Shown in pieces: positions 22,009-28,351 of a DNA stretch of 64,000 nt. The translations under genes and the position numbers were made by a program. Position 1 is the first letter of the stretch. Each line of letters begins with the position of its first letter. This DNA is from Clostridiales bacterium (lineage in GTDB: Bacteria > Bacillota > Clostridia > Christensenellales > Aristaeellaceae). The stretch covers positions 186,001 through 250,000 of the forward strand of contig JALFVL010000042.1 of NCBI GenBank assembly GCA_022787165.1. Reading direction: 5' to 3'. The notes under the pieces are model-generated. The model did no database searches. It saw only the letters and a list, made by a program, of their open reading frames with translations, and was not told the origin of the DNA.

Positions 22009-22521
22009 TTACTTCGCCGCGGCGGCAGCCTTCGCCAGCGCAGCGAGCTGATCGGTGATGTGCACAGTGCAGCCGCTGACCAGGTCGGCGTCGGTCGCCA
22101 CGCCCGCCTCCAGCGTCATGCCGGTGATCTCCTCGACGGTCTTGCCGATGCACCAGGCCTCCAGGGCCTCCATCTGCTCGTCATACTCCTTGCCGATGGG
22201 GGAATACTTGCCCATGCCGTAGCCCTCGCCCAGCTCCTTCTTGCTCTGGGGCGCCATGGTGGCCTCGCAGGTCAGCGCGCCGGTCGCGTCGAAGGTGCCC
22301 TTGCTCTGCACGACATCGAAGCTGATGGAGGTGATCTTGCCCTCCTCGTCGATCGTCACGGCGCACACGGTGGTGTCGACCTCGACGGAGCCGGCCGCGT
22401 CGGCGGTGGCGGCGGTGCAGGAGACGGCGGTCACGGTGCCCAAGCCGGTGGCGGCGAGCGCGCCGGTCGCGACGGTCAGCAGCAGCGCAGCGAGGATGAT
22501 GGCAGAGAGAATCTTCTTCAT
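22009..22521 (-). CDS. Secreted FMN-binding-domain-like protein 1
   Basis: The 170-residue protein starts with a signal peptide (MKKILSAIILAALLLTVATG, cleavage near ALA-AT) and lacks a lipobox Cys. The mature part resembles an FMN_bind domain: it ends with DLVSGCTVHITDQL, like the flavinylation motif D-x-x-[ST]-G-A-[ST] of secreted flavoproteins but with Cys in place of Ala. It has four further cysteines, many for an exported protein. It is probably anchored by partners or free in the envelope. It is its own unit, with a promoter carrying the CACACTTTTG box shared with the next two genes. Flavin binding is inferred; no ApbE flavin transferase gene lies in the window. Confidence 0.75.
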   Translation of the reverse strand: MKKILSAIILAALLLTVATGALAATGLGTVTAVSCTAATADAAGSVEVDTTVCAVTIDEEGKITSISFDVVQSKGTFDATGALTCEATMAPQSKKELGEGYGMGKYSPIGKEYDEQMEALEAWCIGKTVEEITGMTLEAGVATDADLVSGCTVHITDQLAALAKAAAAAK

Positions 22522-22596: not shown

Positions 22597-22632
22597 ATTA
22601 TAGGCGGCACTTATGTCAAAAGTGTGGTTTTT
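22597..22632 (-). promoter_or_regulatory. Promoter with shared CACACTTTTG box, FMN gene 1
   Basis: On the minus strand TATAAT (22602-22597) is preceded, after exactly 14 bases, by CACACTTTTG within AAAAACCACACTTTTGAC (22632-22615). The same box at the same distance precedes the two other FMN-domain genes. No sigma-A -35 stands at the normal 17-base distance. Confidence 0.7.
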
Positions 22633-22719
22633 CGACAGAAAGTTTTTCCCAAATGACTTTTCATCGATTCCATCTTGGAAAGTGACTTGGCAGTGGTTTG
22701 TTGTGCCGCAAACAGAAAG

Positions 22720-22741
22720 AAGGCTCCCGGATGGGAGCCTT
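22720..22741 (-). terminator. Terminator of FMN-binding-like gene 2
   Basis: The stem GGCTCCC/GGGAGCC with a 4-base loop, followed on the minus strand by TTCTTTCTG, lies 16 bases after the stop codon at 22757. Confidence 0.75.
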
Positions 22742-22756
22742 CAGGCCATTTGCGGT

Positions 22757-23272
22757 TTACTGCGCAGCCTTCGCAGCCTCGATCAGGCCGTTGACATAGC
22801 CCAGCGTGTCCACCAGCGTGCAGCCGGTGACAGCGTCGACCATCTCCTCAGCGGTCTTGCCCTCGACAGCAGCCTCAAGCTCGGCAATGGTCTTGCCGGT
22901 CACAAAGGCTTCAATCGCGGCGTAGTTCGCGTCGAGCGCGACGGTAGAGCCGGCCTTCTCGGCCATGTTCGCGCTGTACTGCGCGGCGTTGACCTTCTTG
23001 GAGGCCAGCACCTTGCCCTCGGGATAGCTCGTGCCGAAGTCGGCGTCGCTGTTGGGCACGCCCACGCTCGTGTCGGCAGCCATGAACTGGAACTCGTCGA
23101 TGTAGGCGTCGGCGATCACGCCGTCCTGCATCGCCACGGTCAGCACCGCAAAGCACTTCGTGCCATGCGCGGCATATTCAACCTGACCGATCTGAACGCC
23201 CTCAGCCATCGCCGGGATGACCAGGCACAGCAGCAGCGCCGCCAGCACAGCGGCAGAAAGGATCTTCTTCAT
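22757..23272 (-). CDS. Secreted FMN-binding-domain-like protein 2
   Basis: A 171-residue exported protein: signal peptide MKKILSAAVLAALLLCLVIP ending PAMA-EG, then a compact domain with VIADAYIDEFQF and the C-terminal DAVTGCTLVDTLGYVN, again a D-x-x-[ST]-G-[AC]-T flavin-attachment-like motif with Cys before the Thr. Two ADAxxx-type stretches and the FGTSYPEGKVLASKKVN segment resemble electron-bifurcation-independent FMN_bind proteins of the envelope. It is transcribed from its own promoter with the same box as its neighbours and ends in a clean terminator. It is a paralog of protein 1 in signal peptide, size and motif. Confidence 0.75.
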   Translation of the reverse strand: MKKILSAAVLAALLLCLVIPAMAEGVQIGQVEYAAHGTKCFAVLTVAMQDGVIADAYIDEFQFMAADTSVGVPNSDADFGTSYPEGKVLASKKVNAAQYSANMAEKAGSTVALDANYAAIEAFVTGKTIAELEAAVEGKTAEEMVDAVTGCTLVDTLGYVNGLIEAAKAAQ

Positions 23273-23335
23273 GGATCATCTCTCCTTTTCCCACTCATCC
23301 TCCGCCCCGCATCGGGGGCTTTGGATTTTTTTTAC

Positions 23336-23371
23336 ATTATAATGGGGATTTGTGGCAAAAGTGTGTTTTTT
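23336..23371 (-). promoter_or_regulatory. Promoter with shared CACACTTTTG box, FMN gene 2
   Basis: On the minus strand TATAAT (23341-23336) is preceded after 14 bases by CACACTTTTG, in AAAAAACACACTTTTGCC (23371-23354). Spacing and sequence equal those at 22597 and 24251. Confidence 0.7.
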
Positions 23372-23412
23372 TGGACAAGAATCAAAAGAAACACATTTTA
23401 TTTATGCGCCGT

Positions 23413-24219
23413 TCAGTCAATTCTGTAGGTATGCCGCCCCAGCCCATCCCAGATGGCGGAGATGACCTTCGGTGCGCGCAGTGTCGCGCCGCTGGAGACA
23501 TCCGTGTCCGCGACAATCTCGCCGGGCAGATAGAGGTCGTTCACACTGGCAACCGGCCGGCCAACCAGATACGCAATCAGCTCCTCAAACTGTGCGGCAA
23601 CCTGGCGTACGCCGTCAGGCGCCTCCTCGCTCAGGTAATCCTCATTCTTATAGGAAAGCGTCCGGTAGTGAATCTCCGTGAAGCGGTTGTCCTCGACGGT
23701 GAATTCCAGCGCGACCTGCTCGCCGCCGTCCTCCATGTAGGAGCCGCGGTAGACGCCGTCCGCATAGGGCTCAGCCGCGGGCAGCTTCGTCGTATCCACC
23801 AGCTTGTAGGGATGGCGGTTGAGCCCGTCCCAGAGCGCGGAGATGAGCTTGGAGGACTGCATCGTCGCCGTCGTGACCGCGTCGACGTCCTCGACAATGT
23901 CGTAGGGGCTGTACAGATCGTCAATCGCGTCGACGCCCTTGCCGATCAGATAGTCCGCCAGCTGACGGTACTGGTCAAGCGTCGCCTTCTGCGCGTCGCT
24001 CGCGTCCTCGCTCATGTAGTCGCCGTCCTTGTATTTGACGCCCCTGTAGACGATGGAATCAAACACCCCGCCCCGCAGCTCAAACTGGATCGCGATCTGT
24101 TCGATGCCGCCGTCGTAATAAAAGCCGCGGTAAATGCCGTCGGAATAGACGGCCTCGCCGGCCGCCGCGCTGCCCATCAGCACGCACGCAAGGAGCACGG
24201 ACACAAAAAAAAGTTTCAT
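23413..24219 (-). CDS. Secreted protein with two tandem FMN-binding domains
   Basis: The 268-residue protein has a signal peptide (about 1-21, no lipobox) and two repeats of about 120 residues. Each repeat begins YSDGIYRGFY or YADGVYRGSY and ends in a motif plus ISA-LWDGL-type helix: DAVTTATMQSSKLISALWDGL in the first, DVSSGATLRAPKVISAIWDGL in the second. The second carries the consensus S-G-A-T flavin attachment site; the first has lost the Gly. It is the promoter-proximal gene to the divergent two-component system, with a leader of about 25 bases and an AAGGAGG ribosome site. A role in extracellular or envelope electron transfer is inferred from the domain. Confidence 0.82.
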   Translation of the reverse strand: MKLFFVSVLLACVLMGSAAAGEAVYSDGIYRGFYYDGGIEQIAIQFELRGGVFDSIVYRGVKYKDGDYMSEDASDAQKATLDQYRQLADYLIGKGVDAIDDLYSPYDIVEDVDAVTTATMQSSKLISALWDGLNRHPYKLVDTTKLPAAEPYADGVYRGSYMEDGGEQVALEFTVEDNRFTEIHYRTLSYKNEDYLSEEAPDGVRQVAAQFEELIAYLVGRPVASVNDLYLPGEIVADTDVSSGATLRAPKVISAIWDGLGRHTYRID

Positions 24220-24250
24220 TTAAAAAGCCCTCCTTCCGGATGGTCTCTTG

Positions 24251-24287
24251 ATTGTAGCGTTCGATTATGGCAAAAGTGTGGCTTTTT
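24251..24287 (-). promoter_or_regulatory. Promoter with shared CACACTTTTG box, tandem-domain FMN gene
   Basis: On the minus strand TACAAT (24256-24251) is preceded after 14 bases by CACACTTTTG, in AAAAAGCCACACTTTTGCC (24287-24269). The box lies about 30 bases from the divergent two-component promoter. Confidence 0.7.
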
Positions 24288-24302: not shown

Positions 24303-24345
24303 ATTGTCAATCAAAATTGACAATCCCGCGCAAAGCCCCTACAAT
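24303..24345 (+). promoter_or_regulatory. Promoter and overlapping inverted repeat of the two-component operon
   Basis: TTGACA (24317-24322) and TACAAT (24340-24345) are 17 bases apart. A perfect inverted repeat, ATTGTCAA (24303-24310) and TTGACAAT (24317-24324) with a 5-base spacer, covers the -35, so a bound protein would block or gate this promoter. Confidence 0.75.
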
Positions 24346-24497: not shown

Positions 24498-25181
24498 ATG
24501 AACCCGATTCTCGTCGTCGACGATAACGAACAGATTCTCGAAATCCTGACCCGATATATCAAGGCCGAGGGCTGGACCTGCCTGCCCGCGCGCAGCGGCG
24601 AGGAGGCGCTCTCCCTCTTTGACGCCGCCGCGCCCTCGCTCATCCTGCTGGACATCATGCTTCCGGGCATCGACGGCCTGGAGGTCTGCCGGCGCATCCG
24701 CAGCGTGTCGAGCGTGCCCATTCTGATGATCACCGCGCGCGACGAGGATGCCGACCGCATCCTCGGCCTGGACATCGGCGCGGATGATTACATCATCAAG
24801 CCGTTCTCGCCCGGTGAGGTCATGGCGCGCATCCGCGCCGTGCTGCGCCGCCTGCCCGCCGCATCGACCGATGAGACGCTCGTCATCGGCACGCTCTCCA
24901 TCCACCTGCCCTCGCTGAGCGTTTCGCTGGATGGGCACAAGCTCAGCCTCACGCGCCGGGAAATCGAGCTGCTCTACACGCTCGCCTCCTCCCCGGGACG
25001 CGTATTCACGCGCGACAACCTGCTCACCCTTGTCTGGGGCTATGAGCACGTGGGCAACTACCGGGCCGTCGATTCCCACATCAAGCGCCTGCGCCAGAAG
25101 CTCGACGCCTATCCGCACGACTTCTTTACCATCGCGACAGTCTGGGGCGTTGGCTACAAATTCGAGAGGACACTGCCATGA
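24498..25181 (+). CDS. OmpR/PhoB-family response regulator
   Basis: The 227-residue regulator has a receiver domain (about 1-115: acidic pocket VVDDNE at residues 6-11, phospho-acceptor Asp52 in LLDIMLPG, Lys in KPFSPGEV) and a C-terminal winged helix (about 130-225: RREIELLYTLASSPGRVFTR, RAVDSHIKRLRQKL). It starts MNPILVVDD behind GGAGG. Its 3' end overlaps the sensor kinase gene as ATGA. It stands divergent from three FMN-domain genes that share a promoter box, which are its most likely targets. Confidence 0.95.
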   Translation: MNPILVVDDNEQILEILTRYIKAEGWTCLPARSGEEALSLFDAAAPSLILLDIMLPGIDGLEVCRRIRSVSSVPILMITARDEDADRILGLDIGADDYIIKPFSPGEVMARIRAVLRRLPAASTDETLVIGTLSIHLPSLSVSLDGHKLSLTRREIELLYTLASSPGRVFTRDNLLTLVWGYEHVGNYRAVDSHIKRLRQKLDAYPHDFFTIATVWGVGYKFERTLP

Positions 25182-26650
25182 CAGAGCGTATCAAGCACCG
25201 CCGCTCCATGACGGTTCGCCTCTTCCGCCTCTTTGCGCTGCTGCTCATCGCCTTTACCATCATCCTGAATCTGCTCTATACCGCGCTGATGCGCCGGCAG
25301 ATGATCACGCATTACAGCCAGTCGATGCAGCGCGACGCCTACGCCATCTCGCAGAATCTCTCGGAGCTGATCGCGCCATCGAGCTATGAGTCGCTCGACG
25401 ACACGCGCTTCATCGTCAGCGAGGACACGCTTGCGCCCTACATGGCGCTCATCGAGCAGATCACGAGCTGCAACGTCTACCTGATCGACACGAGCCACAA
25501 TGTCACCGGCTATTTCGACGGCGTCGTGCAGAAGCTGACCAATCCGCTCCTGCCCGCCTATATCGAGCAGACCATCGCGCTGGGCTTTATGGGAAAGACC
25601 CCCTTTATTCAGGCCGAGGACGGCGGTGAAACGCACCTGACGGCCTGCATGCCGATCATGAATGCGCAGAGCCGTGTGCTCGGCGTTGTGCTGCTGGAAT
25701 CGACGCTGCGCGAGCTGGGCTTCACGCAGGCGCCCAGCCGCACCACGCTGTTTGTCAGCTGCTCGGCGGCGTTCCTGCTCTCCGCGCTGCTGGCGCTCGT
25801 CTTCTCCCATCAGTTCACCAGGCCGATCTCCTCGCTGCAAAAGGTCGCCCTGGAGCTGGCAAGCGGCCGCTACGAAACGCGCACCCGCGTGCGCCAGAAG
25901 GACGAAATCGGTTCTCTCGCCCGCTCGATGGATATCCTCGCCGAGCGGCTTGAGGAATCCCGCCGCCGCGACGAGCAGCTGCGCAGCCAGCAGCAGGCAT
26001 TCTTCTCCAACATCTCCCATGAGCTCAAGACCCCGGTGACGGTCATCCGCGGCTCGCTTGAAGCGCTCAGCGACGGCGTGATTTCGGATGAAAAGAGCGT
26101 GCGCGCCTATTACGCGCAGATGATCGAGGAAAGCCGCTGGCTCCAGCGCCTGATTCAGGATCTGCTCGAGCTTTCCCGGCTGCAAAGTCTCGAGTTTTCG
26201 CTCACGATGGCCGATCTCGATCTGCGCGAGCTGCTGGGCGACGTGGCGATGAGCGCCAACGCGCTGTGTGAGCGCAAGGGCGTGCTGCTCTCCTGTGAGG
26301 AGCCCGACCGCGCCTATCCTTTCCGCGGCGACTACACGCGCCTGCGCCAGATGCTTCTCGCCGTCGTGGACAACGCCGTCAAATTCACGCCGTCCGGCCG
26401 GCATGTTCGGCTATCCATTCAGGGCGAAAACCCGGAAATTCACATCTCTGACGAGGGTACAGGCATTGCCGCGCAGGATCTGCCGCACATCTTCGACCGG
26501 TTCCATCATACCCACGATGCCTCCCGCGAGAGCACGGGCCTCGGCCTGGCCATCGTCCAGGAGATCGCCCGGCGTCACGCCATCAGGATCGACGTCCACA
26601 GCAAGGAGGGTGAAGGCACGACCTTCATCTTCCGCTTTCCGAAAGCCTGA
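25178..26650 (+). CDS. Sensor histidine kinase
   Basis: A 490-residue membrane kinase: TM1 about residues 13-35, an extracytoplasmic sensor of about 150 residues, TM2 about 188-210, HAMP about 211-265, then HisKA (SHELKTPVT with the phosphorylated His) and HATPase_c (N-box VVDNAVKF, G1 ISDEGTGI, G2 STGLGLAI). The G1 box has Glu where Asn is usual (DEGTG for DNGxG). The sensor region belongs to no family I can name. It is co-transcribed with the response regulator and followed by a hairpin. It probably senses an envelope or redox signal relevant to the secreted flavin-domain proteins. Confidence 0.93.
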   Translation: MTERIKHRRSMTVRLFRLFALLLIAFTIILNLLYTALMRRQMITHYSQSMQRDAYAISQNLSELIAPSSYESLDDTRFIVSEDTLAPYMALIEQITSCNVYLIDTSHNVTGYFDGVVQKLTNPLLPAYIEQTIALGFMGKTPFIQAEDGGETHLTACMPIMNAQSRVLGVVLLESTLRELGFTQAPSRTTLFVSCSAAFLLSALLALVFSHQFTRPISSLQKVALELASGRYETRTRVRQKDEIGSLARSMDILAERLEESRRRDEQLRSQQQAFFSNISHELKTPVTVIRGSLEALSDGVISDEKSVRAYYAQMIEESRWLQRLIQDLLELSRLQSLEFSLTMADLDLRELLGDVAMSANALCERKGVLLSCEEPDRAYPFRGDYTRLRQMLLAVVDNAVKFTPSGRHVRLSIQGENPEIHISDEGTGIAAQDLPHIFDRFHHTHDASRESTGLGLAIVQEIARRHAIRIDVHSKEGEGTTFIFRFPKA

Positions 26651-26655
26651 GCACC

Positions 26656-26692
26656 TTCCGGAGACGGCGTCCAGTAACGCCGTCCCCGGAAA
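26656..26692 (+). terminator. Hairpin terminator of the two-component operon
   Basis: TTCCGG-GACGGCGT pairs with ACGCCGTC-CCGGAA around a short loop, followed by ATTTCAATTTC, starting five bases after the kinase stop. Confidence 0.65.
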
Positions 26693-26707
26693 TTTCAATT
26701 TCAGGGG

Positions 26708-26736
26708 TTGACTTTCTCTTTTCTGCATGCTATAAT
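26708..26736 (+). promoter_or_regulatory. tRNA-Val promoter
   Basis: TTGACT (26708-26713) and TATAAT (26731-26736) are 17 bases apart with an ATGC extended -10, 21 bases before the tRNA. Confidence 0.8.
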
Positions 26737-26757
26737 CTATTCTGTTCTCAGCGATAT

Positions 26758-26833
26758 GGTCTGTTGGCTCAGTTGGTAGAGCACATCGTTCACATCGATG
26801 GGGTCACTGGTTCGAGTCCAGTACAGACCACCA
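26758..26833 (+). tRNA. tRNA-Val (anticodon CAC), CCA encoded
   Basis: The 76-nt gene folds as a cloverleaf: acceptor GGTCTGT/ACAGACC, D-arm GCTC...GAGC, anticodon stem CATCG/CGATG with loop TTCACAT (anticodon CAC, reads GTG), T-arm ACTGG-TTCGAGT-CCAGT, and an encoded CCA end. A consensus promoter precedes it and a terminator follows. Broken copies of its anticodon arm and 3' half lie just downstream. Confidence 0.97.
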
Positions 26834-26837
26834 AATA

Positions 26838-26870
26838 GCCACCCTTCACGGGTGGTGTTTTCTTTTCTTC
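26838..26870 (+). terminator. tRNA-Val terminator
   Basis: The stem GCCACCC/GGGTGGT with a 5-base loop is followed by GTTTTCTTTTCTT, starting five bases after the tRNA. Confidence 0.85.
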
Positions 26871-26879
26871 AAATCTTGT

Positions 26880-27096
26880 CCGTTGCCGCGTCTCGCCTCA
26901 CATCGATGGAGGTTGACCACTGGCCGCCGCCTGTGGCGGTTTCAGGCCGTGGGCAACGGTTCGAGTCCAGTACAGACCACCAAAAGGCGCTGTCTCTCAT
27001 GGCTTGATTCAGCCATTTTGAGACGGCGCCTTTTGATCTTGTCTCCGAATCCGGCCCGTTGCCGAGCCGCCACTTGCTTCACATCGATGACACCTC
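26880..27096 (+). repeat. Decayed partial copies of the tRNA-Val gene
   Basis: A 27-base exact copy of the tRNA 3' half and flank (26809-26835) recurs at 26958-26984. The anticodon-arm string CACATCGATGG recurs at 26899-26909, separated from the 3' half by about 35 unrelated bases. A third fragment, TTCACATCGATG, is at 27078-27089. Fragments two and three are both preceded by CCGTTGCCG (26880-26888 and 27056-27064). No complete cloverleaf can form. Either tandem tRNA duplication and decay, or scars of integration at the tRNA end, explains this. Confidence 0.75.
26982..27034 (+). terminator. Terminator behind the second tRNA fragment
   Basis: AAAGGCGC, GTCTC and ATGGCT pair with AGCCAT, GAGAC and GCGCCTTTT in one long stem with a TTTTGATCTT tail. 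Its position relative to the copied tRNA 3' end mirrors that of the intact tRNA's terminator. Confidence 0.8.
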
Positions 27097-27109
27097 GCGC
27101 TCTCACCCC

Positions 27110-28351
27110 TCAGTGAATCGCCTCTAAAATCGGCCGTCCTTCCCCCGGTTCAATGCCGCTCCAAAGCGCGGCGAGGAGGGCGGCATCATGCGCCTGCCAC
27201 GCTTCGTCGTCAAGGTCAAACGTCTCGTCATAGACGGTCTGCCACGCGCCGCGGACAAGCCTCTCCGCCTTCGCCTGGAGCTTGTCGCTGGTGATACCGG
27301 CTTCCGGGGGCAGCATCGATGCGCGCGCAAGCTGCACAAGCAGCCCGTTTTGCCACTGGTACAGCGCATAGCTACCGGTCGCCGCGCCGTCATGCAGATA
27401 GTTGAGCACATAGCCCGTCTGCGGGTAGAGCGTGCAGCGATAGACAGAGAAATCCGCCAGCTCGCCATGCTCGACAAACCGCCCCGAGACAGGCTCGTAG
27501 AGGTAATGCGTGCCGAAGGCGTCCGACGCCCCCGCGATGCCCATCAGCAGCAGGTCGGGGTAACCGTCCATGTTCACGTCGGTCGGATACACCGCCTTCC
27601 AGTATTCATCCATGCGCCCGCCCGTGTAGACAAAGCTCTGCGTGGTCGTGCCCTGCGTCTCCACGCGCACGCTGTACGTCGCCTCGCCGTATCCGGGATT
27701 CTCGCCGAGCCGCGTCACCTCGACGAGGATGCGGCGGCCGCCCTCGTCAAGCGTCAGCGTCTGCACAAGCTGCGCGCCGCCCGAGGAAGCCGTTCCGCCC
27801 TGCGCGCTGCCCGGGTAAGGCGCGTCTCCCGCAGAGACCGCGTCTCCCGCAGAGACCGCGTCTCCAAGCGTCACGAGCGTGTTTTTGATGTAGCCCTGTC
27901 TGCCGCCCGCGTCAACGAAATACCAGCCGCCCTTCGTCTCGCCGTAGACCCTCACGGCTGCGCCGTCCTTCAGCGTCCCCAGCACGGGCGCGTCCGCAAT
28001 GGGCTCGCCGCGCAGATTGACCCGTGAGCCGGCATTTCTGGGCGAAATGATGCCCGTCGGCATCAGCGAGTCGACCGGCGTCCCACTCAGGTAGCGGGTC
28101 ATCATGTAGCCGTTCTGCGTGCCGATGACGACCGCCGACCAGCCGTTCCCCGCATCCCCCGTGACCTCAACCGGCGTCCCCGTGAAATACAGGCCCATCG
28201 ACGTTCCCTGCGTCGAGCACTCCGCGCGCAGATGGACGCGGTCCGCGCTGCCGCCCGCGACATACGCCGTCCCCTGCGCCAGCGCCAGGGACGTCCAGGC
28301 CAGCAGCAGCCCAAGCGCCGCCAGCGAAGCAATACCTTTCTTCCTGTTCAT
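27110..28351 (-). CDS. Secreted protein with two bacterial SH3 domains
   Basis: The 413-residue exported protein has a signal peptide (MNRKKGIASLAALGLLLAWT...ALAQG), two SH3b domains (about 27-90 and 100-160; VNLRGEPIADAPVLGTLKDG in the second), then a domain of about 250 residues containing DVNMDGYPDLLLMG, an integrin/VCBS-like calcium-binding pattern. Bacterial SH3 domains bind cell wall peptides, so it likely sits in the wall. A linker repeat GDAVSA comes from an 18-bp tandem repeat. The start at 28351 has a GGGGAGA ribosome site and gives the signal peptide; earlier in-frame starts do not. The C-terminal function is unknown. Confidence 0.8.
   Translation of the reverse strand: MNRKKGIASLAALGLLLAWTSLALAQGTAYVAGGSADRVHLRAECSTQGTSMGLYFTGTPVEVTGDAGNGWSAVVIGTQNGYMMTRYLSGTPVDSLMPTGIISPRNAGSRVNLRGEPIADAPVLGTLKDGAAVRVYGETKGGWYFVDAGGRQGYIKNTLVTLGDAVSAGDAVSAGDAPYPGSAQGGTASSGGAQLVQTLTLDEGGRRILVEVTRLGENPGYGEATYSVRVETQGTTTQSFVYTGGRMDEYWKAVYPTDVNMDGYPDLLLMGIAGASDAFGTHYLYEPVSGRFVEHGELADFSVYRCTLYPQTGYVLNYLHDGAATGSYALYQWQNGLLVQLARASMLPPEAGITSDKLQAKAERLVRGAWQTVYDETFDLDDEAWQAHDAALLAALWSGIEPGEGRPILEAIH

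Follow-up and report, generated by a model that had tools for sequence, protein, structure and literature searches.

Regulators of the OmpR/PhoB family bind direct repeats as tandem dimers, as described for Mycobacterium tuberculosis PhoP, which recognizes 7-bp motifs with a 4-bp spacer (PMC4832192); the PHO box consists of two 11-nt units (PMC4415409), and at PhoB-activated promoters the distance to core elements must be strictly kept (PMC10294691). Of 31,910 mined genomes, about half encode flavinylation machinery, in which ApbE recognizes the target motif [S/T]GA[S/T] (PMC11334425); such flavoproteins, when secreted, support a respiration-like export of electrons. In Lactiplantibacillus plantarum, ndh2 and pplA are induced by 1,4-dihydroxy-2-naphthoic acid (DHNA) plus iron (PMC8837199), and the term “two-component” occurs 0 times in the main text of that paper. 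A dedicated regulator for secreted flavoproteins was not found in the open-access literature, including the accessible parts of PMC8238504, PMC11334425 and PMC8837199, which does not prove its absence. Here we describe three genes for secreted proteins, A, B and C (starts at 22521, 23272 and 24219), in a 64,000-nt stretch of contig JALFVL010000042.1 from a Clostridiales bacterium of the gut that is uncultured (the window). Each is preceded by the same promoter box, and next to them lies a two-component system (TCS) made up of a response regulator (RR) and a sensor histidine kinase (HK). We consider it probable, judging from the sequence, that the three promoters are activator-dependent promoters of the housekeeping sigma factor worked by the adjacent RR, and that together they form a secreted flavoprotein regulon.

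Regulatory logic of this kind is familiar. Apparently new are the regulon with its operator and the connection of a TCS with PplA-like flavoproteins, as none of them was found in print in the accessible parts of the open-access literature. Like class-II PhoB sites at pho boxes, the window element can be read as 11-bp direct repeats standing in place of the -35 at a strict distance from the -10, but the half-site is GMCAYA rather than CTGTCAT, 8 bp separate the second 7-bp repeat from the -10, and the targets are secreted flavoprotein-like genes instead of phosphate genes. As to flavin-based extracellular electron transfer (FLEET) with its lipoprotein PplA, known from Listeria/Lactiplantibacillus, a lipoprotein from a FLEET-like locus in Anaerovorax has two domains, each of them homologous to gene A (see below). 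No genes for Ndh2, quinone synthesis or a PplA lipoprotein were found among the eight neighbouring window proteins scanned, and the NCBIfam model of PplA left the window proteins unmatched at E ≤ 0.001; the Ndh2-like protein of Anaerovorax had no match in the host genome, in a search which lacked a positive control and shows little. Like the ApbE-flavinylated proteins of the FMN_bind family (PF04205; FMN, flavin mononucleotide), protein C has a motif resembling [S/T]GA[S/T], A and B have its G-C-T variant, all three have signal-like N-termini, and ApbE is present; they differ in that A and B fall below Pfam detection and that most A/B motifs have Cys in place of Ala.

The initial annotation, made from the window alone, described three boxes at a fixed distance of 14 bases from TATAAT, TATAAT and TACAAT. 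This is exactly what we observe: the decamer CACACTTTTG occupies positions 22617-22626, 23356-23365 and 24271-24280, in all cases on the minus strand (Table 1). Its further statements that no -35 stands at the usual distance (the best match at 16-18 bp has 2/6 letters in each promoter), that the sequences around the boxes differ (they are unalike by eye) and that there is no fourth box (the decamer has no further match in the window, even with one mismatch allowed) were borne out as well. The decamer alone, allowing one mismatch, is unremarkable, with at least three matches in 22 of 100 shuffles of the window, and for this reason weight is placed on exactness, spacing and conservation. In the host genome (2,487,313 bases in 42 contigs, 90% complete), the strict pattern CACACTTTTG-N14-TANAAT yields three exact matches, all at this locus, and its reversed control yields none, the chance expectation per genome ranging from about 0.0001 (window trinucleotide model) to 0.005 (independent, identically distributed letters). 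A profile search at E ≤ 0.1, in which 150 of 408 first-look candidates were scored, likewise gave for the host genome no sites other than the three of the window. The strict form is present in 3 of 200 family genomes (the host, G177 and G093), with the reversed control at 0 throughout; the match in G093 (G093:C76; L004, L142) points toward convergent genes and is probably due to chance.

Table 1. Coordinates of the box-associated genes, promoters and two-component system in the window.
Feature	Position	Strand	Basis
Gene A, secreted 170-aa PplA-like-domain protein, candidate flavinylated (DLVSGCT)	22009..22521	-	alignment, Anaerovorax homology
Gene A promoter -10, TATAAT	22597..22602	-	genome pattern search and site alignment
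Gene A box AAAAACCACACTTTTGACATAAG, half-sites ACCACA and GACATA 11 bp apart	22610..22632	-	profile E 1.1e-7
Gene B, secreted 171-aa relative of A, candidate flavinylated (DAVTGCT)	22757..23272	-	alignment; model pLDDT 83.5
Gene B promoter -10, TATAAT	23336..23341	-	genome pattern search and site alignment
Gene B box AAAAAACACACTTTTGCCACAAA, half-sites AACACA and GCCACA	23349..23371	-	profile E 4.0e-8
Gene C, secreted 268-aa protein, two tandem FMN_bind-like repeats, motifs DAVTTAT and DVSSGAT	23413..24219	-	FMN_bind E 0.011; repeated strand/helix pattern
Gene C promoter -10, TACAAT	24251..24256	-	genome pattern search and site alignment
Gene C box AAAAGCCACACTTTTGCCATAAT, half-sites GCCACA and GCCATA	24264..24286	-	profile E 1.7e-8
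TCS operon promoter TTGACA-N17-TACAAT, without box	24317..24345	+	10-11/12 consensus letters in 17/17 loci
RR, OmpR/PhoB family (Response_reg and Trans_reg_C), proposed activator	24498..25181	+	Pfam, phylogeny
HK: N-terminal region with external domain (by eye), HAMP, HisKA, HATPase	25178..26650	+	Pfam, alignment

Comparison with related genomes revealed the box, with its -10 spacing kept, before orthologous genes at 27 sites in 12 genomes, and because the same box and the same distance recur in this way, conservation identifies the box as a real cis-element. Alignment of these sites yields the element AAAAGCCAYACWTTTGMCAYAAA-N7-TANNNT, in which the A and the last T of the -10 are invariant (27/27) and TANNNT occupies a single offset in 26/27. 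No -35 better than 3/6 letters can be found across the aligned sites, and the conserved element, about 23 bp in length, occupies the position where it would be expected. Like class-II sites of the OmpR/PhoB family, it can be read as a pair of GMCAYA half-sites at an 11-bp period, a repeat of modest significance (see below), with the second half-site complete at all 27 sites and the first at 19, and 11 is the best direct-repeat offset among 3-17 in a column comparison of the aligned sites. That the shared box is a functionless residue of gene duplication is hardly credible: A and B are indeed paralogues (27.7% identity over 159 aa in tblastn), but the flanks of the three boxes do not resemble each other, and the conserved box also stands before genes of another type on other contigs and before a flavodiiron protein gene (see below). 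Use of the box as a repressor site, whether for the RR or for another factor, would suit its overlap with the polymerase-binding position, but promoters without a recognizable -35 would leave little to repress in the absence of an activator, and we give this option only a small chance. The Spo0A-box motif TGTCGAA, located just upstream of the gene A box, was set aside, as the other aligned sites do not keep it.

A sequence-only profile, R1, trained on 26 of the 27 sites, was searched over 29 genus genomes, with 150 of 408 first-look candidates scored. At E ≤ 0.0031 it recovered the 26 training sites and six more, 32 in total, after which there is a gap to 0.036. Genes of types A, B, C or D follow 29 of these sites, type D being a larger FMN_bind protein (PF04205 E-values of 5e-16 to 1e-15, above cut-off, in three tested); of the other three, one precedes a flavodiiron protein gene, one has no gene before the next box, and one lies at a contig end. 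The six non-training sites comprise gene C of G208 (also seen by eye), a contig end in G200, D-type genes in G187, G071 and G096, and the flavodiiron protein gene of G071, the product of which has a twin-arginine translocation (TAT) signal and a rubredoxin-like domain. The D-type genes lie on contigs other than that of the TCS, which does not prove chromosomal distance, because the relatives are fragmented assemblies (except G025, with 3 contigs, and a few others). These results lend good support to the earlier suggestion of a small envelope-flavoprotein regulon, which in relatives reaches genes on other contigs. In the host genome it seems to include A, B and C only, since no D-type orthologue was found there, only the shared domain in other proteins. 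Gene C of G212 (L016 4245-5057), one of the 29 genes identified by R1, has two in-frame stops, due to gene breakage or to faulty assembly, behind an intact box. A box with its -10 at L015 6467 (minus strand) is separated from the next box by 206 bases with no gene between; it is located where gene B stands in some other species, and would be either a tandem promoter or a remnant of a lost gene B.

Each of the three proteins begins with a hydrophobic signal-like N-terminus (by eye), in agreement with the secretion and gene starts initially assigned to them. No Pfam family was matched by A, B or C at E ≤ 0.001; for protein C, FMN_bind appears at E = 0.011 with 16.8 bits, below the cut-off of 22. 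The D-x-x-x-G-C-T-like motif of A and B retains its Asp and Thr in 27/27 rows, as do the DAVTTAT and DxxSGAT-like motifs of C in 15 rows. These motifs resemble the ApbE target motif, and the host genome has one ApbE match; A, B and C are probably flavinylated by ApbE, and motif and homology point to their being flavoprotein-like. The “FMN-domain” label that the genes had received holds loosely: flavinylation-like motifs are present in all three, but the FMN_bind match is missing for A and B and sub-threshold for C. The host genome contains 18 PF04205 matches, and the two which were scanned with NCBIfam are flavocytochrome-c-like reductases. Over the motif, a sequence profile of A/B weakly matched 2kzx (E 0.0038) and, at 0.092, the “FMN4 domain” 8p2b. 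Predicted models of B and C had a predicted local distance difference test score (pLDDT) of 83.5 and 76.9, respectively, and the C model displays the same strand/helix pattern twice. Fold searches with the two models yielded nothing at E ≤ 0.001; their best matches (1.9e-3, IscU-type, and 2kzx at 0.074 for B; 4.8e-3, IscU, and 2kzx at 0.057 for C) are weak and were not used as evidence.

Synteny, phylogeny and site anatomy make the adjacent TCS the best-supported regulator, as the initial annotation had proposed, with binding of the RR to the box inferred. The RR-HK pair was described there as divergent from the gene set, which is true of gene C; A and B, which lie behind C in the same orientation and have a box of their own each, are not directly divergent. 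RR orthologues with 78-91% identity occupy the same neighbourhood in other genomes of the genus, and HK orthologues at E ≤ 1e-80 are present in 14 of the 29 genus genomes. The RRs of g1, g14 and g26 form one clade (19 rows, support 100/99), and the RR-HK pair accompanies the box in three genera. The g14 RRs are not one group, being scattered among g1 RRs at weakly supported forks, which hints at horizontal transfer of the module. Residues 30-185 of the HK are as conserved as its catalytic part (mean identity to the window of 0.68 vs 0.69 across 19 further rows, of which the Anaerovorax one enters the alignment only at residue 159), and its signal is therefore probably common to the orthologues. 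Paralogous RR-HK pairs, with RRs of about 50-54% identity, occur near other FMN_bind genes in the genus (L015 11395-14596, L023, L025 and L026); no R1 box was seen at these four places, and the pairing of a TCS with FMN_bind genes may recur with other operators.

The TCS operon itself has a near-consensus promoter of the TTGACA-N17/18-TACAAT type, with 10-11 of 12 consensus letters, in 17/17 loci. At these loci the C promoter carries the box in ten cases and lacks it in seven, and 5/7 box-less C promoters have a sigma70-like TTGAxx-N17-TARAAT with 9-10/12 letters, in comparison with 7-9/12 in the box-bearing ten, which suggests that the box stands in for the -35. The initial annotation had also offered an alternative sigma factor, for which the box would be an unusual -35. 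The fixed -10 distance and the lack of an ordinary -35 would be in line with it, but the -10, TAnAnT, is of the type found in the ordinary promoters nearby, an element of about 23 bp is long for a -35, and a sigma70-like promoter replaces the box at most box-less C genes; moreover, no such factor is encoded among the eight neighbouring proteins scanned, the rest of the genome not having been searched for sigma factors. Its chance is slim in our estimation. A perfect 9-bp inverted repeat, ATTGTCAAT-CAAA-ATTGACAAT, at 24303-24324 overlaps the -35 of the TCS operon; it was rejected as a candidate element, as only its -35 part is conserved in relatives.

Outside the genus, 20 sites in 16 genomes were found at E ≤ 0.001 among 250 family genomes searched (genus members included), while the nominal, rough E-values would give about 0.25 chance sites. 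Sixteen of these sites were inspected, those in G253, G193, G034 and G005 being left out. Half of them (8/16) belong to genera g14 and g26 and stand upstream of genes of types A, B, C or D; in these two genera the layout is kept, with RR-HK divergent from C, then B and/or A, and boxes before at least one of them. Another three precede small proteins with DxDNDGxCD repeats, three precede DUF2202/rubrerythrin-like proteins (two by Pfam, one by eye), one precedes an RR paralogue, and one lies near a contig end without a clear gene (G133, L153, about 300 bases). The DxDNDGxCD-repeat proteins (L143, L151, L157 and L160) share the box in other genera and are small, with a signal-like N-terminus and R/G/Q-rich stretches; the one tested (L134) had no Pfam match at E ≤ 0.1.

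A scan of named genomes produced 16 loci, of which 15 were already in the set of relatives and add no new evidence; the sixteenth belongs to Anaerovorax odorimutans. Its RR is 54% identical to the window RR and sister to the g1/g14/g26 clade (95/84, with a long-branch warning). The intergenic region between this RR and the C homologue holds, upstream of the latter, GCCACAAAAAAGACACAGAATGGTGATAATAT, a repeat of the form GCCACA-N5-GACACA-N9-TAATAT, in which the half-sites are 11 bp apart and the second one begins 15 bases before TAATAT, matching the window geometry. The locus was absent from the R1 training set, and R1 misses the site at E ≤ 1; it was spotted by eye, and a regular expression matching it was written afterwards. 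The cluster comprises a 340-aa two-domain lipoprotein-like protein, the C homologue, RR/HK, a polyprenyl synthase, a DHNA-prenyltransferase-like protein and an Ndh2-like pyridine-nucleotide oxidoreductase whose DoxD match is marginal (E 0.025); aided by the gene list in PMC8837199, we regard it as a FLEET-type locus. When aligned with gene A, the 340-aa protein shows 28% and 30% identity in its two domains; it is matched weakly by the PplA NCBIfam model (16 bits, cut-off 325).

Several observations weigh against operation of the boxes by this RR, bound as a tandem dimer before flavoprotein genes. The first half-site deviates from GMCAYA by one letter at 8/27 sites, including those of window genes A and B, and the 11-bp repeat is modestly supported, since its score is reached by 734 of 20000 column shuffles at offset 11 and by 3592 of 20000 over offsets 6-12. 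Inverted symmetry about centres 5.0 and 14.0 scores higher, at 0.374 and 0.349 per pair vs 0.220 for the direct repeat; the best of these spans 7 pairs, fewer than the direct repeat, and any-centre shuffles reach 0.374 in 716 of 20000, so that such symmetry has roughly the same support as the repeat. The difference between box-less and box-bearing C promoters is not significant (Mann-Whitney P=0.087), and A and B have no FMN_bind match even with a raised limit. Co-occurrence of the TCS and the box (12/14 vs 1/15 genomes, Fisher 2e-5) is weak and partly trivial evidence, as most boxes lie in the TCS locus; the two TCS genomes without a box are G209, with a box-less C gene, and G165, where the contig ends near the RR. 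In G071 (93% complete) three boxes were found and no RR/HK orthologue, although the TCS may have been lost in assembly, as the contig ends 280 bases after gene B. Genera g20 and g30 have the box with nearest RRs of 52-55% identity, outside the clade, and in G117 (g35) and G001 (g2) the box is present and no RR was found at E ≤ 1e-70; the operator may therefore be common to sister regulators.

These genomes, together with the inverted symmetry, which would suit another dimer, could also mean that the box is the site of a different factor encoded elsewhere, with the TCS merely a conserved neighbour. Such a factor would not readily account for the box and the RR clade travelling together in g1, g14 and g26, for the distant Anaerovorax RR facing a related direct repeat in the same place, or for the arrangement in G147 (g20), where a box-driven gene lies directly upstream of the RR on the same strand (site E 0.00245). 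We consider it unlikely, though deserving of some weight. A direct repeat is preferred over a palindrome because the regulator is of the OmpR type and because of the repeat in Anaerovorax.

The box, its conservation and fixed geometry, its copies before the same class of genes and its linkage to one RR clade are the observations from which we infer how the adjacent RR would work. On detecting a signal from outside the cytoplasm, probably that an extracellular electron acceptor is present or what state it is in, the HK would phosphorylate the RR. A head-to-tail RR dimer would then bind the two half-sites at the -35 position and, acting as an activator rather than a repressor, recruit RNA polymerase to the TAnAnT -10 via sigma region 4, in the manner of PhoB at pho boxes. 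This would switch on the secreted PplA-like and FMN_bind-like proteins A, B and C, joined in relatives by D and, in one of them, by a secreted flavodiiron protein; these proteins, probably flavinylated by ApbE, would shuttle electrons outside the membrane. Beyond the HK gene, tRNA-Val(cac) at 26758-26833 is the sole tRNA gene found within 26600-27200, and an apparent partial, interrupted copy of its 3′ part with the same end letters is visible by eye at about 26900-26985.

On a broader scale, we put forward tentatively, as something that may well not hold, that an old and widespread TCS of Clostridia serves extracellular flavin electron transfer. A single RR lineage with a GMCAYA-N5-GMCAYA operator would control FLEET-type operons in some lineages, such as Anaerovorax, and dispersed genes for PplA-like, FMN_bind and flavodiiron proteins in others, along with ferritin-like envelope proteins via sister regulators, and would sense the availability of an extracellular acceptor. 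A candidate regulator with a defined operator allows prediction of further pathway members from sequence, and the idea is testable in a named strain, Anaerovorax odorimutans SL.3.17, which carries a related RR and repeat. As the external part of the HK is conserved, its ligand could show what these bacteria sense.

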